50,452 bases of DNA from NCBI GenBank assembly GCA_031274295.1, contig JAISQI010000020.1, forward strand, positions 1 to 50,452, in the 5' to 3' direction. The notes under the pieces were generated by a model. The model worked only from the letters and a program-made list of their open reading frames with translations, was not told the DNA's origin and searched no databases. Origin of the DNA: Holosporaceae bacterium. Lineage in GTDB: Bacteria > Pseudomonadota > Alphaproteobacteria > UBA3830. Below, piece after piece: positions 7,179-33,439 of this stretch (position 1 is its first letter; every line of letters starts with the position of its first letter). Made by a program: the position numbers and the translations under genes.

Positions 7179-8318
7179 ATGATCGGCGTGAGAGGCACGT
7201 GCAGGCCGTCCAGAAAGAAGAATGGAAAAATAATCATAGCATTTCTGGTGTGTCTCGGCGCAAGCGTGTTGATAAAACTTTCTGAAAATCAGATAGCTCC
7301 CGCTGATGAATATGAAGATTTCATAGACGAACGTGTGTCACTTATAAAGTGTGAGCAAGACCTTTTACAAGAAAAATTAGAACATCAGATAGGAGTTTTA
7401 CTTGCTTCTGAAATTTTCGATCGATTTTTAGATGGCTTAAAAAATGGAAACGAGCTTTGTAAAAATTACTTAGAAAACTTTAATCCCATTTTTCAAAGAT
7501 TAAAAAGTGAATCGAAAGATGGTGTTCCGGCAGCGAATGAAACGATTCAAGTTTCTTCCCGCTTGTTGGTTATCGTGAGAAATCTTCTGAAGACTCACAA
7601 AAAAGAGATAGAAGAGCTTCTCCTAAAGCAATTAAAAAATAATAAAGAACAGGTTGATCAAGCCATCGAAAAAGTTTTGAAAATAACAGAAAAAGACTGG
7701 GAATTATCGTTGTTGTTCTTCCTAAATATAATGAGATTAAAAAGGAATGCCGATAAATTTTTAAAATTAGCTCAGGAAGGAGATACAGAAGCGCAATGTA
7801 AAATCGGCAGGTATTACATAAAGGGGTTTGCTATGTCATTTCCAATTATGTGCACAGCTAATGACATGACTCCTAGTGGAAAAGAGGGACTGAAATGGCT
7901 CACAATGGCGTCGCAAAAAAATGATAGAAACTGGTCCGGTTACGCTAGCTATCGTATTGCATTAGCATATGAATATGGACAGGCTGGGATTCCGCAAAGT
8001 TATGAAAAAGCTCGCCTGTGGCTGGAAAAAGCCATAGAACAAGATTATTACCCGGCAATTCATGAGATGGCCATTTATTATTATGAAGGACTTGGGGTAG
8101 AAAAGAATATCCCTAAGTATCTTCAATTGTTGAAAAAAGCGGCATACTTACATAACTATGACTTATCCCAGTTACTTCTAGCCCAGCACTATCTCGACGG
8201 TGCAATCTGTACAAAAAACATAAATGAGGCCAAAAATTTGCTAAAGAAAGCGGCTGCTCGGGGCAGGAAAAATGCGGAACAACTTTTAAAAAATATAAAT
8301 GAGAAAACTTTTAATTAG
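7179..8318 (+). CDS. Sel1-repeat protein, membrane-anchored or secreted
   Basis: 379 residues. A basic N-terminus (RPSRKKNGK) precedes a hydrophobic segment at about 17-35, which fits an uncleaved signal anchor or signal peptide. Residues ~45-190 are charged and helical. About four Sel1-like (TPR-type) units then follow from ~195. They are recognised by A-x-C/Y-x-IG-x-YY, GLKWLTMASQKN, YRIALAYEYG, ARLWLEKAIEQDYYPA, EMAIYYYEGLGV and ENAKNLLKKAAARG-like blocks. Sel1 repeats mediate protein-protein contacts. In intracellular bacteria such proteins are often surface or effector proteins, but that role is inferred. It may be cotranscribed with rpmG. Confidence 0.85.
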   Translation: MIGVRGTCRPSRKKNGKIIIAFLVCLGASVLIKLSENQIAPADEYEDFIDERVSLIKCEQDLLQEKLEHQIGVLLASEIFDRFLDGLKNGNELCKNYLENFNPIFQRLKSESKDGVPAANETIQVSSRLLVIVRNLLKTHKKEIEELLLKQLKNNKEQVDQAIEKVLKITEKDWELSLLFFLNIMRLKRNADKFLKLAQEGDTEAQCKIGRYYIKGFAMSFPIMCTANDMTPSGKEGLKWLTMASQKNDRNWSGYASYRIALAYEYGQAGIPQSYEKARLWLEKAIEQDYYPAIHEMAIYYYEGLGVEKNIPKYLQLLKKAAYLHNYDLSQLLLAQHYLDGAICTKNINEAKNLLKKAAARGRKNAEQLLKNINEKTFN

Positions 8319-14853: not shown

Positions 14854-17800
14854 CTAGTATCTATATTTCCAACTAATGCCGGCTTCTCCGCTGGTATTAG
14901 CTTTTATAGAGATTCTCGGAGTGATAGCGAAATCTACGTCGAAGCTTGCTCCTTCGCTTTTTTTATTGACGCTTATGTAGACGTTATCATGAATGTATTT
15001 TCCAGCGCTTATATTTACGTTATTTCGAGCCGACGTATCCTGTGAATTCGAATACAGAGAACTAGATTCTCTATCTGAACTAGCAAATGAAATGTTATCA
15101 ATTACCCCCAGGTTTTGAAATGTGTTTAACACAGAAAAAACGTATCCGCCTCGATTAAGACTGGCGACTGCGTGAGCCAGCTGAGCCGCTTCACTAATCG
15201 TTAAATATTGAGATTCCTTCTCAAATAGCATTTTTGATAGAATAACGTCCTGCTTATAACTCGGCACGGAATGCAAATTCAAAGATACTGCCTTCTCGGG
15301 AGCGCTTTTTATATTTAGTTCGACACTCATATCTCTAAAATTTTTCTTACAAACGAATAACGCTCGTGGATCGAATGGAAATTCCCGAAGGAATATCACA
15401 TTTCCTTGGGTGAAATTCATTCGCTTTCCAAATAGATCCAGCTTCCCCCCATACAGCTTTAGCTCTCCAATTAAAGTTCCTTTATTCTGGTAAGAAGATA
15501 ATTGCAAGTCCCCCCTTAGATACATCTCAAAAATACTTCCAGCAAATTTTATACTCTCGCAGCGCAACAAAACATCGTATCTGAAAAAATAATTTTTATC
15601 CTGTTCTTTTTTATCCTTGCGGAGGTAAGTATCATTTTCTATTTGGAGATCTAGTCCTTTTAAAAGGTCATCTGAAGCGAAATTATGTATCTCGCATTTA
15701 GGAACGACAATGTCTCCTCTAATGATCATATCGTTAATTGAACCAGTCATGGATCCGTTCCCTTTTACTGTAATTTTTAAATCGTCTGAATCGAAAAGAG
15801 TGAAATTATCAAATTTTAGCTGGAGATTGGAGTCTATATCGGGGATTGTTCCCCTAAAGAATAATGCCCCATTTCCGGAAATCGTCGCTCTTTTCCCTTT
15901 ATAATCGACGAATTCAGCCCGTAACACATCAATATTTTTTCCATTTCCAACTAAAGAGATGGTGCCGTTTCTCAATAAAATATCACCTATGCCCAAGTAC
16001 ATTCTGTGCAACTGTACTTTTCCTGAAACGGCAGGGTTTTCAAAACTTCCGGTTATGCGTAAATCACAATTTAAATTGCCTCGCAAATCCAAATTATCTG
16101 GCAATTCCAGCGACTTTTCAAGACTAGCATTGGCCATCATATGGCAATCCAGCGTATTGGCATGTAAGTTTCTTACCATGGATCCATCGCTTTTTAAATT
16201 AATCGGCAGAAATGTGAAAACATCTATGGAATCTTTATTATTCTTGAAATTCACGTCGATTTTTGCTCCTTTGCCGGAAAGGTTCAAATTGATCGCCAGT
16301 TTTTGCTTGTGAGCAAGCAAATTAGAGAGAAACAATGCCCCCTCTCCGGTAAAAATTCCATTTTCTTCTTTTAGCTTTATGGTCCCGTCTAATCGGCAAT
16401 CGGGAACATTACGGTTGAACAATTTCATAAACCTTTCGACCGAAAAGGTTTTAAAATCACAAATTGTTTCTTGGGATTGGATTTTTATTTTAGCTTCTCC
16501 GGACTTTCTTTTGTCCGCCAGAACGCAACGAACTTCTTGGGCGCTTGATTTCGTGTCCGCTACATATATCTCGAACTTAGTTTTATCCTGCGGAAATATA
16601 ATTTCGCAGTGTTTAAGAGATACTTTTTGAAAAAATTTTACAATTTCTCCAGAGGCTTTCAATCCGCCGCTACCGTTTACTTTGCCGAACAAATTAAAAT
16701 GTCCGTCTGATATTTTCAGGTTTGAATCACTAAGTTTTGCACCGAAAACATCCACATTTTGAGCCGTTATTTGGATGTCCTTTTCGTTTCCGAAAATTTT
16801 CAATGAATGAAATTCACAATTTTTCAGATTGAGTTTTGGGAATTCGCACTTTCCGCAAAAGACGCCGTTTTTGCGAGAGAAGCTACCGGAGCCTTGTCCC
16901 GAGATGGGAATGATTTTGTTCCAAAAATCCAGTTGATTGAAATCAAAATCAAAAGAACAATCGGGATTATCTGTAATGAAAAATGGTTTTGAAGATTTTA
17001 AAAATCCTTTAGCGCTTGTGAGATTGATTTTTTCCACCAAGATGCGATCTCCGAATTTTATATTTGCGGATATTTCGAAATTTTTGCCCGATAATTTTAA
17101 TTTTGATTGTTTTTCATCGTCGATTTCGCCAGTTAAATCCGAAAAATCCAAGCCAAAGATCTTTATCCAGCCGATATCGCCAACGATTTTTGTTTTATAG
17201 TTTTCGCTAACGCAATTCAAACGTCCCACTGGAGTTTCGAATTTTTTAAAAACAATATCCGCACGATACTGTAATCTTTCAACAAAATTAAAATCGACTT
17301 TCGCGTATCCGGTAATGTTTTTAAAGTTTTGAATAATATCCGAAGGCATAGAGTTGAAATGCGGCGACTGTTCCCAATTGATTTTTGCCTGAAGAACCGC
17401 GTTTCGCTTTGTCGGATATATATTTCCGGAACAACGACAGACAATGTTTCCATATTCGGCGGTGGCCGCATCAATTTTTATATCGGACATTAAATTTTTA
17501 CAGTTACCTTTGGCTATGATTTTCATTTGATCATTCAAAGCCATAAATTCGTACGTCGTCGTTTCTTTTTCCGGATTTTTAATTAGTAGATCGCCGTTCA
17601 TATTAAAAATATTTTTGAAAGATACGACTACCTCCGCGCATTTTTCATTTCTCCATTTGCAAACGGCATTTACTGTCTGTCCTCTGGCAATTTCACAATA
17701 CAAACAATCTTCGTCCTTTTCGGATCGGTAACTCAAGTTGATTCGCAGAGGTTTTTCTCCGATATCTAATGATCCTTTTTCGATTGTCAGGTCTTTTATA

Positions 17801-18162
17801 AAGAATCTCAGTTTGCGTACCAGTGCCAGTAGATTTATAAACGTTTTATCTTCGCCGGATTTTTCCATTGATTCTTTAAAAACAAAAGCGCCCACACTGA
17901 TGGATGATCTATCAAAAAAGCGTTTTCTATTAAGCGTTATGTCGTCGAAAATTAATTGTTTACCTCCGGAAGCAATGCGAATTTGTCTGATTTTTGTTAT
18001 TCGTCTGTCCAATCCATCGATAGTAAATACTATATTTTCAGTCCGAAAAATGATCGAAGCAAAAGTTAACAGCAATTTCCGCCCAGAATCGAAAAAAAAC
18101 ATTCCGCCAAAAATTACAATGGTCAGCAGTAACGTAAGTAATGTTTTCCTAAAGATTCTCAA
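14854..18162 (-). CDS. tamB: Translocation and assembly module protein TamB
   Basis: Large periplasm-spanning protein that works with TamA in outer-membrane protein insertion and envelope lipid traffic. 1102 residues. A single N-terminal anchor (about 8-30) is followed by a very long β-rich repetitive body (AsmA/TamB type). The conserved DUF490 C-terminus includes LYGGKLDLFGKRMNFTQGNV and DPRALFVCKK, and ends in the aromatic ISWKYRY. The start is TTG with AGG a few bases upstream; it overlaps the tamA stop as TTGA, so the two are translationally coupled. The adjacent tamA confirms the assignment. Confidence 0.93.
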   Translation of the reverse strand: MRIFRKTLLTLLLTIVIFGGMFFFDSGRKLLLTFASIIFRTENIVFTIDGLDRRITKIRQIRIASGGKQLIFDDITLNRKRFFDRSSISVGAFVFKESMEKSGEDKTFINLLALVRKLRFFIKDLTIEKGSLDIGEKPLRINLSYRSEKDEDCLYCEIARGQTVNAVCKWRNEKCAEVVVSFKNIFNMNGDLLIKNPEKETTTYEFMALNDQMKIIAKGNCKNLMSDIKIDAATAEYGNIVCRCSGNIYPTKRNAVLQAKINWEQSPHFNSMPSDIIQNFKNITGYAKVDFNFVERLQYRADIVFKKFETPVGRLNCVSENYKTKIVGDIGWIKIFGLDFSDLTGEIDDEKQSKLKLSGKNFEISANIKFGDRILVEKINLTSAKGFLKSSKPFFITDNPDCSFDFDFNQLDFWNKIIPISGQGSGSFSRKNGVFCGKCEFPKLNLKNCEFHSLKIFGNEKDIQITAQNVDVFGAKLSDSNLKISDGHFNLFGKVNGSGGLKASGEIVKFFQKVSLKHCEIIFPQDKTKFEIYVADTKSSAQEVRCVLADKRKSGEAKIKIQSQETICDFKTFSVERFMKLFNRNVPDCRLDGTIKLKEENGIFTGEGALFLSNLLAHKQKLAINLNLSGKGAKIDVNFKNNKDSIDVFTFLPINLKSDGSMVRNLHANTLDCHMMANASLEKSLELPDNLDLRGNLNCDLRITGSFENPAVSGKVQLHRMYLGIGDILLRNGTISLVGNGKNIDVLRAEFVDYKGKRATISGNGALFFRGTIPDIDSNLQLKFDNFTLFDSDDLKITVKGNGSMTGSINDMIIRGDIVVPKCEIHNFASDDLLKGLDLQIENDTYLRKDKKEQDKNYFFRYDVLLRCESIKFAGSIFEMYLRGDLQLSSYQNKGTLIGELKLYGGKLDLFGKRMNFTQGNVIFLREFPFDPRALFVCKKNFRDMSVELNIKSAPEKAVSLNLHSVPSYKQDVILSKMLFEKESQYLTISEAAQLAHAVASLNRGGYVFSVLNTFQNLGVIDNISFASSDRESSSLYSNSQDTSARNNVNISAGKYIHDNVYISVNKKSEGASFDVDFAITPRISIKANTSGEAGISWKYRY

Positions 18163-20078
18163 AACGCCTGTCCCAAACTCATAATAAATTGCATTTTCGA
18201 GTCGATACCTTTTCTCCGTTTTATTGGAAATGCAAAATCAACTCTTATAGGACCAATGCCGGTAAAATACCTTATGCCGATGCCTACTGAATAAAACCAG
18301 CGTTTTTTTTCAGTTTTCAAATGGTCATAGCATGATTTATTTTGAAAAACTTTCGCTCCGTCAAAAAACACAACGGCACCAAAATCTTCAGAAATTCTTC
18401 TGCGAATTTCGGTATTAAACTCCAGGGAGGATTTTCCTCCCAGCGGAGTATTCTCTCCCACGACCATCTCCGTCGCCATTTGGTTGGCATATCCTCTTAC
18501 GGAATTCATTCCTCCGGCATAGATTCTTTTGTCGACCGGAATATTATCAATCTTCTGTCCGAGAACGGATTTTCTCAACACGTTAAAGGAAAAAATAGTT
18601 CGTTTTAAATCGTCCAGGGAATAATTATATGAAAAACTGGCATCCAGCGTTTTTAGCCTGTTAATGGAGGAATTTTTGAAAAATATTTCCGAAAATTTTA
18701 TCCCCATTTTATAGCCGGAGGTGGGATTTAACCAATTGTCCGTTTGATCAATGATCAATTCCAATGGAATTGAAAAACTATCATATCTATTGTCATAATC
18801 TTTAGAATAAAAAAACACTTTATTCGTATCGATGTAATTTTTTTCTACGCTTCCGCCAATTCTTACTAGAAAATTATCCAATATGGGATAATTAAAGATA
18901 ACAGATCCCTCGTCGCTCTTCCTAAAGAAAACGTTCGTTAGCTCCTGTCTGCGTGAGACGGAATAGTCTGCCGTATTGTTTTTCATAAAGACGTCCGGCT
19001 GAGACATAGCAACTTCAAAGGCGTAGTCCGTTCTTTTTTCTTTTACCCTCATGGGAGTACCTTCGATGGTAAAACTTAGTTTTTCTCCACCTTCGAAGGC
19101 ATTGTAGTTTATCCAGGCAATCCTCGCTATTATGGATTTTAATCTTTTTTGGGTTTCGGATCTTTTTTCAAAATTCATATTGCGCATTCCCGAATACAAC
19201 AGACTTATGTCGATGGTATGTTTTTTATCTTCCTGTAACTCGATTATCATTGGAATTTTGTCATTTTGAATGGCATTTTCATTGGGTTTTATCTTTACCT
19301 TAGAAAAAATCTGAGAGTTTTTCAGGTTTTCCGTAGTCGATTCGACTTTCGCTATATCAAAAATTTCATCCTTCTGCCAACTAATTCTGTTTTTTATAAA
19401 GTCGTCGTCTATGCCCGAAAATGATTTTATTTCGACATCGGAAAAAAAGACTTTCCGTCCGGGATTAATAACTAGATTTAAAACAGCCTCATGTGTCTCA
19501 TGATGGATTTGAACCTTTTTCTCGATCAGTTCCGGTTTAAAAAAACCATCCCGCTGTAAATTATTAACCGCGATTTTTATGAAAGATTTTATTTCTTCAA
19601 CGGAGGCTTTAAACCCTAGCAAATCCTTTTGCAAAATCTCTCGATGACGTTTATTGAATTCTTCATCTTGATTTATATAGTTAACATTGAGTTTGAGTTT
19701 AAATTTTTTCTTTAGATCGACATGCATTTTTACGGTGACATTTTTCGAATCGCCGATATAAATTTTATAAGAAATGTCTACCCCATAGAATCCATAGATA
19801 TGAGCTTTTTGGTACATCACCGTGATGTCGTTGGTTATTCTATCCTTCAACGCTCTCATGTTGCTAATCGGTTTATCCTGCTGAGAAAAAATACGCAATC
19901 GTTTGATATCAGTAACTATTGCCGATTCCGAAATCAGATCCGTAAAAGATTCCACAAAATTCTGGTCCTTTGTTACAACCATATCGACATTGTATCGAAA
20001 ATCGTGAAATGATGGTTCGTAGGAAAAAGCATTCCAGACAAAAACCAAAAATAGAAAAGTTACTTTTTTTAACGCCAT
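18159..20078 (-). CDS. tamA: Outer-membrane assembly protein TamA (BamA/Omp85 family)
   Basis: 639 residues. A signal peptide (about 1-19, KKVTFLFLVFVWNAFSY) is followed by roughly three POTRA domains (about 20-290) and a 16-strand Omp85 barrel. The barrel contains the motif GMNSVRGYANQ (VRGY hallmark in β-barrel loop 6) and GGKSSLEFNTEIRRR, and ends in Phe (SLGQAF), the usual outer-membrane targeting residue. Pairing with tamB separates it from BamA. Its start overlaps the end of tgt by ten bases, which ties it to the tgt transcript. Confidence 0.93.
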   Translation of the reverse strand: MALKKVTFLFLVFVWNAFSYEPSFHDFRYNVDMVVTKDQNFVESFTDLISESAIVTDIKRLRIFSQQDKPISNMRALKDRITNDITVMYQKAHIYGFYGVDISYKIYIGDSKNVTVKMHVDLKKKFKLKLNVNYINQDEEFNKRHREILQKDLLGFKASVEEIKSFIKIAVNNLQRDGFFKPELIEKKVQIHHETHEAVLNLVINPGRKVFFSDVEIKSFSGIDDDFIKNRISWQKDEIFDIAKVESTTENLKNSQIFSKVKIKPNENAIQNDKIPMIIELQEDKKHTIDISLLYSGMRNMNFEKRSETQKRLKSIIARIAWINYNAFEGGEKLSFTIEGTPMRVKEKRTDYAFEVAMSQPDVFMKNNTADYSVSRRQELTNVFFRKSDEGSVIFNYPILDNFLVRIGGSVEKNYIDTNKVFFYSKDYDNRYDSFSIPLELIIDQTDNWLNPTSGYKMGIKFSEIFFKNSSINRLKTLDASFSYNYSLDDLKRTIFSFNVLRKSVLGQKIDNIPVDKRIYAGGMNSVRGYANQMATEMVVGENTPLGGKSSLEFNTEIRRRISEDFGAVVFFDGAKVFQNKSCYDHLKTEKKRWFYSVGIGIRYFTGIGPIRVDFAFPIKRRKGIDSKMQFIMSLGQAF

Positions 20079-21241
20079 TTATTTTTTACATATTCCAAAT
20101 TTTTATTTGAAATTCCTTCGCGAATTTCTTCCATTAGCTTGTTCATAAACCGGACATTATGAACGGTAATCGCCGATGGAGCGAGAAGCTCGTTAGCTTT
20201 CAGTAGATAATGCAGATATGCCTTCGAAAAGTTTTTACAAGTCGAGCAATCGCAGTCCGGCTCAATGGGATTATCGTCCGTCGCATATTCTGATCTTTTT
20301 AAATTTATATGTTCTCTTGTTTTATTATCTCTATGTTGGGGTTTCACAAGGGCTCCACCGTGTCTTGCGACTCTCGTTGGATGAACGCAGTCGAAAGTAT
20401 CGATCCCCAGTTCCACGCATTTGAAAATATCAACGATACCTCCGATACCGAGGAGATGAATCGGTCTAGAGAGAGAAAGTCCGTTCGTTGCCATTTCCAC
20501 AACTTCGTACATTTGTGTTTTAGTCGATCCAAGAGTTCCTCCAATGGCGGTAGCGAAAAACGGCTTGTCGCTGATAAATTCTGCGCTACGTTTTCTTAAA
20601 TCTTGATACACCCCTCCCTGCACTATTCCATACAGAGCTTGTGTAAAATCGTTTTTTCTAGCGAATTCATCCAGCGAGCGTTTTTCCCAACGATGTGATC
20701 TTTCCATGGATTGCTCGGTATACTTTTTATCGCTATGGTAGGGAGTACATTCATCAAAAGAGACAATGAGGTCGGCCCCCAGATCCCTTTGGGTTTCAAT
20801 AGATTTTTCGGGAGTTAATAATTGCATGTTGCCATCCCAATAGGATCTAAAAAATGCTCCTTGTTCATCTATTTTTACCAAAGTGGACGCCCTCGAGCGT
20901 TTTCCTTTTATTTCGTCCGCAACCGCTCCGTGTCCGAGGCTAAATATTTGAAACCCGCCAGAATCGGAAAGCATCGGTCCATTCCATCCCATAAATTTAT
21001 GTAGACCTCCTAGTTTTTTTATGTGCTCAGCTCCGGGATAGGAAAATAGATGGTATGTGTTCGATAATATAATTTGCGCTTTTGTTTCCTGCAGCTGTTG
21101 CGGTGAAATTCCTTTGACGCTTGCTTTAGTTCCGCAAAAAATAAAAGCGGGCGTTTTAATTTTTCCATGAGGCGTTTTCAAAATACCAACTCTCGATTTT
21201 TCAAACAAATCGACAACACTAAAACCGAAATTTTTATACAT
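20069..21241 (-). CDS. tgt: tRNA-guanine transglycosylase with altered base-pocket loop
   Basis: Swaps guanine-34 of GUN-anticodon tRNAs for a queuosine precursor. 390 residues. Visible catalytic groups are Asp93 in SDSGGFQ, nucleophile Asp284 in DTFDCVHPTR, and the zinc set Cys330, Cys332, Cys335 and His361. The substrate loop FDECTPY keeps the bacterial Cys165. However, the loop that reads GGLAVGE in preQ1-using bacterial enzymes is GGTLGST here (234-240), so the position of the usual Val is Gly as in eukaryotic queuine enzymes. AAGGA precedes the ATG. The gene is 9 bases after the transporter gene, which fits a salvage pair. Confidence 0.96.
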   Translation of the reverse strand: MYKNFGFSVVDLFEKSRVGILKTPHGKIKTPAFIFCGTKASVKGISPQQLQETKAQIILSNTYHLFSYPGAEHIKKLGGLHKFMGWNGPMLSDSGGFQIFSLGHGAVADEIKGKRSRASTLVKIDEQGAFFRSYWDGNMQLLTPEKSIETQRDLGADLIVSFDECTPYHSDKKYTEQSMERSHRWEKRSLDEFARKNDFTQALYGIVQGGVYQDLRKRSAEFISDKPFFATAIGGTLGSTKTQMYEVVEMATNGLSLSRPIHLLGIGGIVDIFKCVELGIDTFDCVHPTRVARHGGALVKPQHRDNKTREHINLKRSEYATDDNPIEPDCDCSTCKNFSKAYLHYLLKANELLAPSAITVHNVRFMNKLMEEIREGISNKNLEYVKNKWR

Positions 21242-21250
21242 AGGTTTTCC

Positions 21251-21946
21251 TTAGCGCATCAAAGTACCGGATAATCTTACTAGAGGAACACAAGAAACAG
21301 CAATGATTAATCTAATTATCCATGCAATAAATATATAGGTATTCCAGAGAGATTGCATGCCTATCGGGTGATCCGCAAAAATCACCCAAACCAAAACAGA
21401 AAAAATAAAATTATCCATAAACGTGGAAATCGCCATGGAAACTAGCGATCTAAAAGAAACGTACCTACCTTTTGTTAATTTTTTCAACGAAGAGAAAATA
21501 TATATATCCGTTTGTTGACTTGTAATATACGACACTAAACTTGAAATAAAAAATACGAAGCAGGGGGAGAATATTTTTTTCAACTCCCCATGTAGATTTA
21601 TACATTCGCCATGTTCGATCACAGGATGTAAAATAGCTATCTTCATAACCAATGTGAAAAATAAATAACATGCAAAACTTATCCATACGCATTTGCGCGC
21701 AGTTTGAGCACCAAAATACTCGGTAAGTATATTATCGACGGCGAAAATAGTGGAAAATAACACCGTTCCCAAAGCAATGGGATGCTCCATCGCAGAATAT
21801 TTCGTAAGTTTTAAAACTTGTATGTTGGATGCGATCACTGCGACGGAAGCGTAGGCGAACAGACCATTTTTTCCAAAAAATCTTACCATTATTAAAATAG
21901 TGAAAAAACAAACAACTAATGTGATACAGCTTAATAATTCTGGCAT
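21251..21946 (-). CDS. yhhQ: Queuosine-precursor transporter (YhhQ/QPTR family)
   Basis: 231-residue integral membrane protein with about six hydrophobic helices. Family marks are the segment VLFSTIFAVDNILTEYFGAQ with its charged D/E residues inside the membrane region and TARKCVWISF just after it. A later SYITSQQTDIYIFSSLKKLT and SMAISTFMDNFIFSV also fit. The family imports preQ0/preQ1 or queuine. No queuosine biosynthesis gene is visible in this window, and tgt lies 9 bases downstream, so uptake of a finished precursor for Tgt is the natural reading. Which base is carried is not shown by the sequence. Confidence 0.88.
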   Translation of the reverse strand: MPELLSCITLVVCFFTILIMVRFFGKNGLFAYASVAVIASNIQVLKLTKYSAMEHPIALGTVLFSTIFAVDNILTEYFGAQTARKCVWISFACYLFFTLVMKIAILHPVIEHGECINLHGELKKIFSPCFVFFISSLVSYITSQQTDIYIFSSLKKLTKGRYVSFRSLVSMAISTFMDNFIFSVLVWVIFADHPIGMQSLWNTYIFIAWIIRLIIAVSCVPLVRLSGTLMR

Positions 21947-21949
21947 GGT

Positions 21950-22618
21950 TTAGACCATTTCATATCTTTCTTTAAATTCGGAAACCGTCTCCGAAACTAG
22001 ATCTGTCTTGTCTGCGGTTATTACTACGACGTCCGACAACAAGCGAAAGAATCCGATTAGCATTTTGCTATATTTATCCTGCCTGTAATCAAAATTACAT
22101 GATAGAAATCTGGCGTTTTTATTGGTTCCCCAAATATTGGATATATGAAACGACGCTTCAGAAATATCAATGATAATATCTTTTAGCGCTTTAATCTTTG
22201 GGTGAAATTTCTTGCGATTCAAACTCCGATCGTTGAGGGCAATTGTTATGAATTTCCCATCTCGCTTTAAAATTCGAAAAATTTCATTTAGAAATTTTAT
22301 ATTTTTGCTGGAAAATTCCAGATAATGATTGACTATCACCATATCAAAAACACTCGCAGTAAATGGAAAAGCGTCGATGTCAATTACAACCGTTTTAAAC
22401 GGGCGAATCCGAGGCCAGCGCACAATTTGATACATTGATGGAACCGCATAATATAGTTTGCCATTGTTAAGAGCGTCGAGCATACCCCCTTCAAAACCTA
22501 TGAACAGAACTTTTTTATCGGATATAAGGCTTTGTAATTTCTGCAGAACGTCCGGAAGCATTTTAACGATGGAATCGTTTCCCATAGAATCGTAAGAAAA
22601 AAATTTTGTGCTTTTCAT
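21950..22618 (-). CDS. Class I SAM-dependent methyltransferase-like protein
   Basis: 222 residues with a Rossmann methyltransferase layout. The motif I position reads KVLFIGFEGGMLDAL (degenerate glycines). An acidic segment DIDAFPFTASVFDMVIVNHYLEF follows, matching motifs II-IV of methyltransferase type 11 proteins, then EIFRILKRDGKFITIAL. The C-terminal 60 residues are poorly conserved. The substrate is unknown. The degenerate glycine loop leaves open a regulatory or inactive form. First gene of the minus-strand run leading to tgt-tamAB-ssb-gyrA, divergent from ihfB. Confidence 0.7.
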   Translation of the reverse strand: MKSTKFFSYDSMGNDSIVKMLPDVLQKLQSLISDKKVLFIGFEGGMLDALNNGKLYYAVPSMYQIVRWPRIRPFKTVVIDIDAFPFTASVFDMVIVNHYLEFSSKNIKFLNEIFRILKRDGKFITIALNDRSLNRKKFHPKIKALKDIIIDISEASFHISNIWGTNKNARFLSCNFDYRQDKYSKMLIGFFRLLSDVVVITADKTDLVSETVSEFKERYEMV

Positions 22619-30021: not shown

Positions 30022-31224
30022 CTAAACAATAAAAACAGAGGGCATACCTGAATCATTAGAAATATTGAATAACTCTGTCATGGCCCAAACCATAGCGTCC
30101 AACCTATCCGGCGATTTACTTTTGGGCTCATAAGTCACCATTTGCATTTCAAGCTTATGAAATGTTCGTGCGTGAAATATCATCTTTTTTTGATATAAAA
30201 TAACGATGGGTTCAGCCCGTGCAATTTTTGATTTATGCGCATAGACTGTTTTTAATTTAATTGAATTATCAAATGAATGTAATAAACTCGGAAGTAATTC
30301 TCCGCCTATATTACTTTCTATTACAACCAGTTTGGCCGAATATCTATGATAAGCTTCCACCACTCGTTTTGCCCAGATTTCTGGAGAAGCCGATATGCTC
30401 AAATCATCTAGAACATACCCTTTTCCCTGACCATCCATGCCGGAGACTATTATGCCAGTTTCATCGCTTTCGGCATTGGAAGTTATGGCGGGGTCAATGC
30501 CTATTACAATATTTTTCAGAAAATGCGGTGGAGATTTATAACAATTTTCCACATCTTCCCAAGACCAGAGCGTATTTTGCTGATCATCTACTATTTCCGC
30601 GTAAATTTCTTGAGATTCCAGACGAGTTCCCCGGAGATATTCCAGCTGTTTTAGAAAAGTCGGCGATAGATTTTCTATATTTTCAAGAGAAGTGCCTCGC
30701 ACCGTAACGACGTCGTTTCTTTCCATTAAGTCCCTTATAAATTGAATCGGTCGAGGAGTTGTCGTGAGAATAGCTCTTGGTTTTTTTCCAAGGCGAAGAG
30801 AAAATGATAATTGCTCGAACGTTTCTCTAGGATGCTGGAATTTGGCAAATTCATCGATCCAAGCGGCGTCAAATTGAGGGCCACGCAGCTGTTCGTAATT
30901 TTCTGCTCCATAAAGAGTCGCCAAAGCTCCACTGGGCCATCTGAGAAGACGTCTTGACGGTAGGAATTCTAGTTCTTCTTCTTCATCTATAATGGAAAGC
31001 AGCCCACTTTCCCCCTCTACCATAACCTGTCTTGCCTCCTGTATGGTATTTGAAATCAGCGCTATTCTTTTATATAGCTTATCGGCAGCCCATTTCCTTA
31101 TGGTCTCCGCAGCAGATCGAGTTTTTCCGAATCCTCGTCCAGCAAGGATCAGCCAAATATTCCAGTCTCCGGGTGGAGCCATCTGATTAGGACGTGCGAT
31201 TTTTTCCCAAGGAATTTTTTTCAT
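30022..31224 (-). CDS. Large terminase / DNA-packaging protein of the gene-transfer-agent type
   Basis: 400 residues. The ATPase part has Walker A GRGFGKT (29-35), Walker B AAWIDEF with Asp124/Glu125, and the coupling motif LTTTPRP. The RNase H-like nuclease part keeps Asp244 in GIDPAITSN, a Glu in VIESN and Asp376 in DRLDAMVWA. All catalytic groups look intact. It resembles the packaging protein of alphaproteobacterial gene transfer agents rather than a typical phage terminase, since it stands alone. No portal, capsid, protease or tail gene lies on either side. Confidence 0.85.
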   Translation of the reverse strand: MKKIPWEKIARPNQMAPPGDWNIWLILAGRGFGKTRSAAETIRKWAADKLYKRIALISNTIQEARQVMVEGESGLLSIIDEEEELEFLPSRRLLRWPSGALATLYGAENYEQLRGPQFDAAWIDEFAKFQHPRETFEQLSFSLRLGKKPRAILTTTPRPIQFIRDLMERNDVVTVRGTSLENIENLSPTFLKQLEYLRGTRLESQEIYAEIVDDQQNTLWSWEDVENCYKSPPHFLKNIVIGIDPAITSNAESDETGIIVSGMDGQGKGYVLDDLSISASPEIWAKRVVEAYHRYSAKLVVIESNIGGELLPSLLHSFDNSIKLKTVYAHKSKIARAEPIVILYQKKMIFHARTFHKLEMQMVTYEPKSKSPDRLDAMVWAMTELFNISNDSGMPSVFIV

Positions 31225-31938: not shown

Positions 31939-32050
31939 TATAATTTTATCCGACAATTAATGATTGTTTTTAAAAATTTTTCATTTATTCTTTGTCACAA
32001 TAATTAAATTATTCTATATTGTATTTTGTCAATTATTGAAGGAAAAAGAA

Positions 32051-33439
32051 ATGAAGAAATTATTTGTTATAGTCGCTGTGATGATGCAATTCGCTACCGA
32101 AGCTATGCTCCTTAATGATCATGATATACCTAGAGGGAATCCTATTGGTTATCGACGGGTGATAGACCAAAGAGAGTCTTTCTCTCTATATTTCGACGGA
32201 CGAAATGCTGTACTAACAGTAAAAGATCCTGGACAGACCCAAGAAATGGCAAATGTCGTTGAATTCGATGGTTTTCGGATTAAAATATTAGGGGGTATGT
32301 CATTATCTGGCATAAATCAACTGATTCAGATGAAGGCGCCCATAAACCTTCCCTTTATAGACAGACTAACAATAAGCAATGGCGGTGAAAATGAGGAAAA
32401 ATATTATTTAGAAAATTTAACTGAAATAATATTTGAGGTAAACGGAAAGGCTTTAGCAAGCCTAGAGGTTATCGATAAATTGCCGCAGTTCAATCAACAA
32501 CACAGTCTGTTTTTTACGTTAGTTGATGCATTCTATAAGGTAAATATTTTATCATCTATCTTTCAAGATTTAAGAGGACAATTAATACACATTCCCTCTA
32601 ACGTAAATAAGATCTGTGCTAGCGCATTTCAAAATTGCGCATGGCTGACAAAGGTAATATTTGAACCATTATGTTCTCTGAAGGATATAGAAAACCGCGC
32701 CTTTTATAGAACAAATTTGCAATCCATAAATATTCCAGCAAGCATAAAGGACATTAAGACAGGTTGTTTTGCGTTTTGTGAAAAATTACATGAGGTAACT
32801 TTTGAAAAGGGATCTAATTTAAAACAAATTGGAGACTGTGCCTTTAAGCAATCTGGCCTGAAGTCAATATGCATTCCCTCAAAAGTGGAGTTCATTGGCT
32901 ATGATTGTTTTAATCTATGCAAAAATTTGGAAGAAGTAACATTCGAATCATACTATAACTTGAAGCGAATGGGGTACGCCACTTTTATGGGATCCAGTCT
33001 GAAGTCAATACACATTCCGGCAGAATTGGAGTTCATTTACGCGAACTGTTTTCTTGGATGCGAGAGTTTAGAAGAAGTAACATTCGAGTCGAACTCTGTT
33101 TTGCGTGTGATTGGAGATAGCTCCTTTCGAAACTCAAATTTGAAGTCGATACATATTCCATCGAAAGTGGAAACCCTCCTCAATAGTTGTTTTTTGGGGT
33201 GCAAGAATTTGGAGGAAGTAATATTTGAACCAAACTCTAATTTGAAGTATATCGAGGAAATGGCTTTTGCTAAAACAGGTTTGAGGTCGATAATCATTCC
33301 GAGAGAGGTAGAATCTATCGGCAGATGGTGTTTTTCGTTTTGTCTAAAATTGGAAAATGTAATATTAGAAGGAGATCCAAAAACCACAGAAGATACATTT
33401 GAAGATTGTGAATCAGATGATAATGATTCATCGGAATAA
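32051..33439 (+). CDS. Secreted BspA-like leucine-rich-repeat protein
   Basis: 462 residues from the ATG at 32051. AAGGA stands seven bases upstream, and the protein then begins with a clean signal peptide (MKKLFVIVAVMMQFATEA). An upstream ATG at 31964 is rejected. Residues ~20-185 are a unique N-terminal region. From residue ~223 on, five units of exactly 47 residues follow the LRR_5 (BspA/TpLRR) pattern, with LKSIHIP, CF.GCKNLEEVTFE and SNLK.IG in each. The acidic tail ends ESDDNDSSE. Such proteins mediate adhesion or host contact in animal- and protist-associated microbes; that role is inferred. It is monocistronic as far as can be seen. Confidence 0.85.
   Translation: MKKLFVIVAVMMQFATEAMLLNDHDIPRGNPIGYRRVIDQRESFSLYFDGRNAVLTVKDPGQTQEMANVVEFDGFRIKILGGMSLSGINQLIQMKAPINLPFIDRLTISNGGENEEKYYLENLTEIIFEVNGKALASLEVIDKLPQFNQQHSLFFTLVDAFYKVNILSSIFQDLRGQLIHIPSNVNKICASAFQNCAWLTKVIFEPLCSLKDIENRAFYRTNLQSINIPASIKDIKTGCFAFCEKLHEVTFEKGSNLKQIGDCAFKQSGLKSICIPSKVEFIGYDCFNLCKNLEEVTFESYYNLKRMGYATFMGSSLKSIHIPAELEFIYANCFLGCESLEEVTFESNSVLRVIGDSSFRNSNLKSIHIPSKVETLLNSCFLGCKNLEEVIFEPNSNLKYIEEMAFAKTGLRSIIIPREVESIGRWCFSFCLKLENVILEGDPKTTEDTFEDCESDDNDSSE
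32717..33421 (+). repeat. Five tandem 141-bp coding repeats in the LRR gene
   Basis: The conserved TTGAAGTC-like segment recurs at 32717, 32858, 32999, 33140 and 33281, each exactly 141 bases apart. Each unit encodes a double LRR of 47 residues. The regular period with drifted bases points to past tandem duplication and allows unit gain or loss by recombination. Confidence 0.8.

Follow-up and report, generated by a model that had tools for sequence, protein, structure and literature searches.

A short-loop tRNA-guanine transglycosylase and an adjoining transporter as a predicted queuine-salvage pair in a Holosporaceae bacterium

Results

A tgt gene with a linked transporter in a small Holosporaceae genome

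The window analyzed here, a 50,452-nt stretch of contig JAISQI010000020.1 (assembly GCA_031274295.1), belongs to a small-genome Holosporaceae gut bacterium that has kept, of the queuosine (Q) pathway, the final enzyme, tRNA-guanine transglycosylase (Tgt), with an adjoining precursor importer of the QPTR family. Since only the last enzyme is kept and the importer lies beside it, the bacterium probably takes up finished queuine. Judging from the missing genes, the transporter linked to tgt, and the company that the enzyme keeps, we regard tgt and the QPTR gene as a probable pair for direct queuine salvage, in which the QPTR protein would import queuine, Tgt would insert it in place of guanine 34 of tRNAs that have GUN anticodons, and no QueA or QueG step would follow. 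We infer that the imported base is queuine rather than pre-queuosine 1 (preQ1). The enzyme belongs to a distinct type: a short pocket loop and a longer segment beside the DSGGFQ motif together mark one Tgt clade. The source genome comprises 1.05 Mb in 71 contigs and is 92.5% complete. The features on which the analysis centers are the following.

20069..21241, minus strand: tgt, tRNA-guanine transglycosylase of the short-loop clade, 390 amino acids (PF01702, TIGR00430, fold, tree)
20522..20542, minus strand: pocket loop GGTLGST, residues 234-240 of Tgt, shorter by one residue than loops of the GGLAVGE type
20747..20749, minus strand: codon of Cys165 (in FDEC), the counterpart of Zymomonas Cys158 (alignment)
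20867..20935, minus strand: longer segment of Tgt, residues 103-125, with the clade motif (here GHGAVADEIKG), 23 residues vs. 7
21251..21946, minus strand: QPTR (Vut_1/TIGR00697) queuosine-precursor transporter, 231 amino acids, the partner of tgt (profiles, adjacency survey, transporter tree)

Profile searches bore out both gene assignments of the initial annotation; the tgt gene lies at 20069-21241 (minus strand) and the QPTR-family transporter gene 9 bases upstream of it. The former product passes PF01702 (417 bits; cut-off 26.3) and TIGR00430 (422 bits; cut-off 306.75), and the latter passes PF02592, or Vut_1 (110 bits; cut-off 27.2), and TIGR00697 (123 bits; cut-off 50.95). The AlphaFold2 model of the window Tgt has the Tgt fold, with a predicted local distance difference test (pLDDT) score of 85.8 and a Z score of 48 to the Zymomonas Tgt; residues 101-116 are modeled with low confidence. 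The DSGG and FDE motifs, the Asp of FDCV, and the zinc-site cysteines, which we take, partly from PMC3660597, to be the active-site motifs of Tgt, are invariant in 15 aligned Tgts of the order, including that of the window.

Search for other queuosine genes

Other genes of the pathway were sought in 49 genomes of the order, including the source genome, and control genomes were matched in the QueA, QueH, QueG, QueF, and QueC searches. The initial annotation had named queA and queG or queH as genes whose presence would speak against direct salvage, and none was seen above cut-off in the source genome or the 48 others: QueA and QueH were not found (0/49 each), and QueG gave a single sub-threshold match of 17 bits (G017). 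QueF likewise had no match above cut-off in the 49 genomes, its nine weak matches (20-22 bits) all lying outside the source genome. The QueC profile matched 44 of the 49 genomes (43 above cut-off), mostly over about its first 60 positions; the match in the source genome (G000:C52) turned out to be MnmA (308 bits, above cut-off) and was rejected as QueC. Direct import and insertion of queuine, as initially proposed, is thus supported by the absence of QueA, QueG, QueH, and QueF and by the identity of the QueC match; the residue argument that accompanied this proposal is not sustained, for the reasons given below.

Pocket loop and longer segment of Tgt

The stretch from the GG pair to the Met of the following helix has 11 residues in the window Tgt (GGTLGSTKTQM) vs. 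12 in the Tgts of Zymomonas (GGLAVGEGQDEM) and E. coli (GGLAVGEPKADM) and in human QTRT1 (GGLSGGESKSQF, with Phe replacing Met), so that the window loop carries a one-residue deletion. Both phmmer and MAFFT align Leu to Val233 (Zymomonas numbering from PMC3660597) and place the gap at Leu231, although the precise gap site is uncertain and other placements are possible. In the phmmer alignment, Ser occupies the position of Zymomonas Glu235, a residue that bonds to the peptide flipping on preQ1 binding (PMC3660597). The loop GGTLGST is present at residues 234-240 as initially reported, but the accompanying claim of a eukaryote-like replacement of the pocket Val by Gly was rejected, since the loop lengths differ and the aligners put Leu at Val; a pocket of eukaryotic type, with Gly at Val233 and an unchanged loop length, is not found in the window Tgt. 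The argument from a eukaryote-like residue to queuine use fails both on this shorter loop and on the Zymomonas variant V233G, which, alone or with C158V, holds queuine without insertion or turnover (PMC3660597). The observation that Cys165 stays bacterial holds: the residue is retained in FDEC, where the human counterpart stretch reads LDDVV, and the eukaryotic-type change of Cys158 to Val does not occur in the window Tgt. All 60 loci of the order that were read (37 genomes, some of them twice) have the loop GG[TS]LG; in locus L064 it reads GGTLGAS.

A further trait, overlooked in the initial annotation, is the 23-residue segment (residues 103-125) that follows DSGGFQIFSL in the window Tgt. 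By MAFFT, 7 residues stand here in 109 of the 110 Tgt copies that do not belong to the short-loop group, among them that of E. coli; human QTRT1 likewise has 7. In the class survey described below, each of the 34 short-loop Tgts carries the motif E[IV][KI]G in the longer segment. Among the best 80 named loci, which were selected for similarity to the query, the short loop occurs in 80 and the longer-segment pattern in 76. A literature search, which did not cover Yuan et al. (2019) and Manna and Harman (2016), found no description of the loop deletion or of the longer segment. The short loop and the longer segment may be what fits the pocket to queuine, and together they may represent a different structural route to the same substrate.

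The short-loop clade in Alphaproteobacteria

The class survey covered 153 alphaproteobacterial genomes that were at least 90% complete; Tgt was found in 141 and QueA in 107 of them, and the Tgt sequences (143 copies) were read in all 141 Tgt-bearing genomes. The short loop occurs in 34 of these 141 genomes, and 32 of the 34 are without QueA. Among the remaining 107 genomes, 104 have QueA, and the three without it are G130 and G116, with the loop GGLAVG, and G115, with a divergent loop. The divergent loop reads GGWLFDE in G115 (L206); another, GGWPIGD, occurs in a second Tgt-like copy (L205) of G075, a genome with QueA.

The short-loop Tgts form one clade (SH-like approximate likelihood ratio test, SH-aLRT, 99; 56 of 68 chosen rows), which includes the Tgts of Ehrlichia, Neoehrlichia, Jidaibacter, and Finniella. 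Tgts from metagenome-assembled genomes (MAGs) of Puniceicoccales (L139) and Francisellaceae (L110) also lie inside this mostly alphaproteobacterial clade, which suggests either gene transfer or mis-binned contigs.

Linkage and phylogeny of the QPTR transporters

In 19 of the 34 short-loop genomes, the gene immediately upstream of tgt encodes QPTR, which is the case in none of the 107 others; further short-loop genomes have QPTR within 3 kb (one genome) or elsewhere (six genomes). In 11 of the 107 others, QPTR is located within 3 kb upstream of tgt with queA, by coordinates, in between. A tree was built for 55 chosen QPTRs and E. coli YhhQ; it left out the tgt-adjacent QPTRs of G053, G052, and G059. 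Twenty-three QPTRs of short-loop genomes, including those of order members, form one clade (SH-aLRT 97). This clade contains none of the 12 queA-neighboring QPTRs, the copy of G133 being among those outside, and the second QPTR copies of G052 and G059 also fall outside it. The QPTRs of G130 and G116 fall together with E. coli YhhQ.

Tgt and QPTR across the order

Among the 49 genomes of the order, Tgt was found in 38 and QPTR in 34: both are present in 34 genomes, Tgt alone in four, QPTR alone in none, and neither in 11. Of the 34 genomes with both genes, 32 have them next to each other by coordinates (all but G001 and G026). In the same-genus genome G033 (L284, approximately 1471-1572), QPTR is gone from between the methyltransferase gene and tgt, tgt and the other neighbors remain, and the rest of that genome gave no QPTR match. 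In genus g6 (G040-G048), seven of nine genomes have neither gene and two have both; the seven are 63-89% complete, and joint pathway loss is possible there.

The 11 genomes that lack both genes (seven belong to genus g6) and the loss of QPTR in G033 would fit a decaying relic, in which Tgt exchanges guanine only and the pathway is being lost. We consider this very improbable, as all 25 order genomes with a completeness of at least 90% and a contamination of no more than 5% carry Tgt, the catalytic motifs do not vary among the 15 aligned Tgts, and QPTR never occurs without Tgt.

Gene neighborhood and other genes of the window

Five close-packed minus-strand genes follow one another in the order methyltransferase-like, QPTR, tgt, TamA/Omp85-like, and TamB-sized, the three neighbors being the following.

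21950..22618, minus strand: methyltransferase-like gene, directly upstream of the QPTR gene, with no assigned pathway role
18159..20078, minus strand: TamA/Omp85-like gene (window gene order)
14854..18162, minus strand: long TamB-sized gene (window gene order)

In related Holosporaceae loci, the constant core consists of QPTR, tgt, and the TamA-like gene; the methyltransferase gene is variable and present at many of them. The closest named loci are from Holosporaceae MAGs, near ones including red-deer and roe-deer-rumen titles, and several carry gut titles. Elsewhere, the window encodes a phage-type terminase large subunit (Terminase_6N, 6C; 30022-31224, minus strand), a BspA-type leucine-rich-repeat protein (31964-33439, plus strand; 218 bits), and a Sel1-repeat protein (7179-8318, plus strand). 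BspA-type leucine-rich-repeat and Sel1-repeat proteins are common among host-associated bacteria.

Discussion

Substrate of the short-loop enzymes

Several observations weigh against queuine as the substrate of the window pair. The queuine-pocket consensus GG[LS][AS]G (PMC11570991) is literally matched by none of the 34 short-loop Tgts, the window having GGTLG, and a Leu in the position of Val233, should the alignments be correct, would not obviously enlarge the pocket. No QPTR match was obtained in 8 of the 34 short-loop genomes. The loop type changes once on a 168-row tree, from which three rows without a clear type were left out, and because it arose once, its correlation with the loss of QueA is unreplicated. 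Counting this correlation as 141 independent cases was rejected, since there is a single loop change and independent pairs yielded no test; Fisher values are accordingly not taken as evidence. In addition, two genomes combine the short loop with pathway genes, G148 having QueA and G133 having QueA, QueG, and a queA-linked QPTR, so that short-loop enzymes may take preQ1; given queA and queG in G133, the loop alone is no proof of queuine use. The QueG, QueA, and QPTR genes of G133 are clustered apart from tgt (L319, 2262-5340; L321, 3173-4450), and this genome has either a short-loop Tgt that accepts preQ1 or a regained pathway. Finally, the gene-absence search was confined to QueA, QueG, QueH, QueF, and QueC.

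With QueD, QueE, QueK, and QueL outside that search and a methyltransferase-like gene of no assigned role upstream (21950-22618), one might suppose that some imported precursor, preQ1 or another, is converted to Q by enzymes with no relation to QueA, QueG, and QueH, or that an indirect QueK/QueL route is used. We find this extremely unlikely. The indirect route needs QueA once preQ1 has been regenerated, yet QueA is absent from 49 of 49 order genomes, and the methyltransferase gene is missing at several loci that retain the QPTR-tgt pair. The need of the indirect route for QueA is also stated in PMC11570991.

A less improbable, though still unlikely, alternative is preQ1 salvage as an end point, proposed for Bartonella henselae, in which QPTR would import preQ1 and Tgt would leave it unconverted in tRNA. 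B. henselae, also an alphaproteobacterium, has like the source organism no more of the pathway than tgt and QPTR, yet its Tgt prefers preQ1, and preQ1 traces occur in its tRNA (PMC11570991). The short-loop Tgt found alongside QueA and QueG in G133 points the same way. Unlike the window Tgt, however, the B. henselae enzyme keeps GGLAVG, with a preference for preQ1 and use of queuine only at high concentration (PMC11570991). Moreover, the QPTRs of the QueA-lacking GGLAVG genomes G130 and G116 group with YhhQ, whereas the window QPTR is in another clade.

For direct queuine salvage, the initial annotation took the host as the source of the base. Given that the named relatives are MAGs, several of them with gut titles, gut bacteria and food are further possible sources of queuine.

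We tentatively suggest, while leaning somewhat toward doubt, that Tgts of intracellular or host-bound bacteria may have come to accept queuine by a non-eukaryotic route, namely, a loop deletion and an EIKG-bearing segment by DSGGFQ, fixed once and inherited with a QPTR clade of their own. Queuine use by a bacterial homodimer needs more explaining because the Zymomonas V233G enzyme, with or without C158V, holds queuine and does not insert it (PMC3660597). The natural short-loop clade, sharply set off from the preQ1-type enzymes (with two QueA-bearing exceptions), provides a defined test set for this question.

Comparison with known systems

Direct queuine salvage by the Tgt and QPTR of Chlamydia trachomatis was reportedly described by Yuan et al. 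in 2019. The use of queuine by this pair is credited to Yuan et al. (2019) in PMC11570991. The source genome resembles that of C. trachomatis in gene content, as Tgt and QPTR are present and QueA, QueG, and QueH are absent from a 92.5% complete genome; a host-associated lifestyle, as in C. trachomatis, is expected for Holosporales. Chlamydia-derived algal Tgts have Gly at the Val233 place, and in Chloropicon mitochondria such a Tgt occurs alongside QueA and QueG (PMC12301720).

Human QTRT1 (PDB 6h45), a direct queuine user, shares with the window Tgt a loop without the bacterial Leu-Ala-Val. It differs in that its loop, GGLSGGE, is as long as the bacterial one and has Gly where Val stands there, and that Val replaces Cys158; furthermore, it is without the longer segment and acts with a second subunit.

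Quaiyum et al. (2024; PMC11570991) described tgt-only taxa, Ehrlichia among them, together with the queuine-pocket consensus, and reported that QPTRs separate according to the type of pathway. The main text of a 2025 review of Holosporales (PMC11909080) contains no word starting with "queu". For Holosporales and Anaplasmataceae without Que genes, direct insertion of host-acquired queuine was proposed by Driscoll et al. (2017; PMC5615194), who assigned the Tgts to one clade; the available part of their account is silent on the pocket loop, the longer segment, and a linked QPTR. The route they predicted is the one predicted here, and Ehrlichia and Holosporales share one clade in our tree as well. 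Queuine salvage in Holosporales has thus been predicted before; the present analysis adds the enzyme type and the linked transporter, so that a prediction based on gene absence alone is strengthened to one based on gene absence, enzyme type, and transporter linkage.

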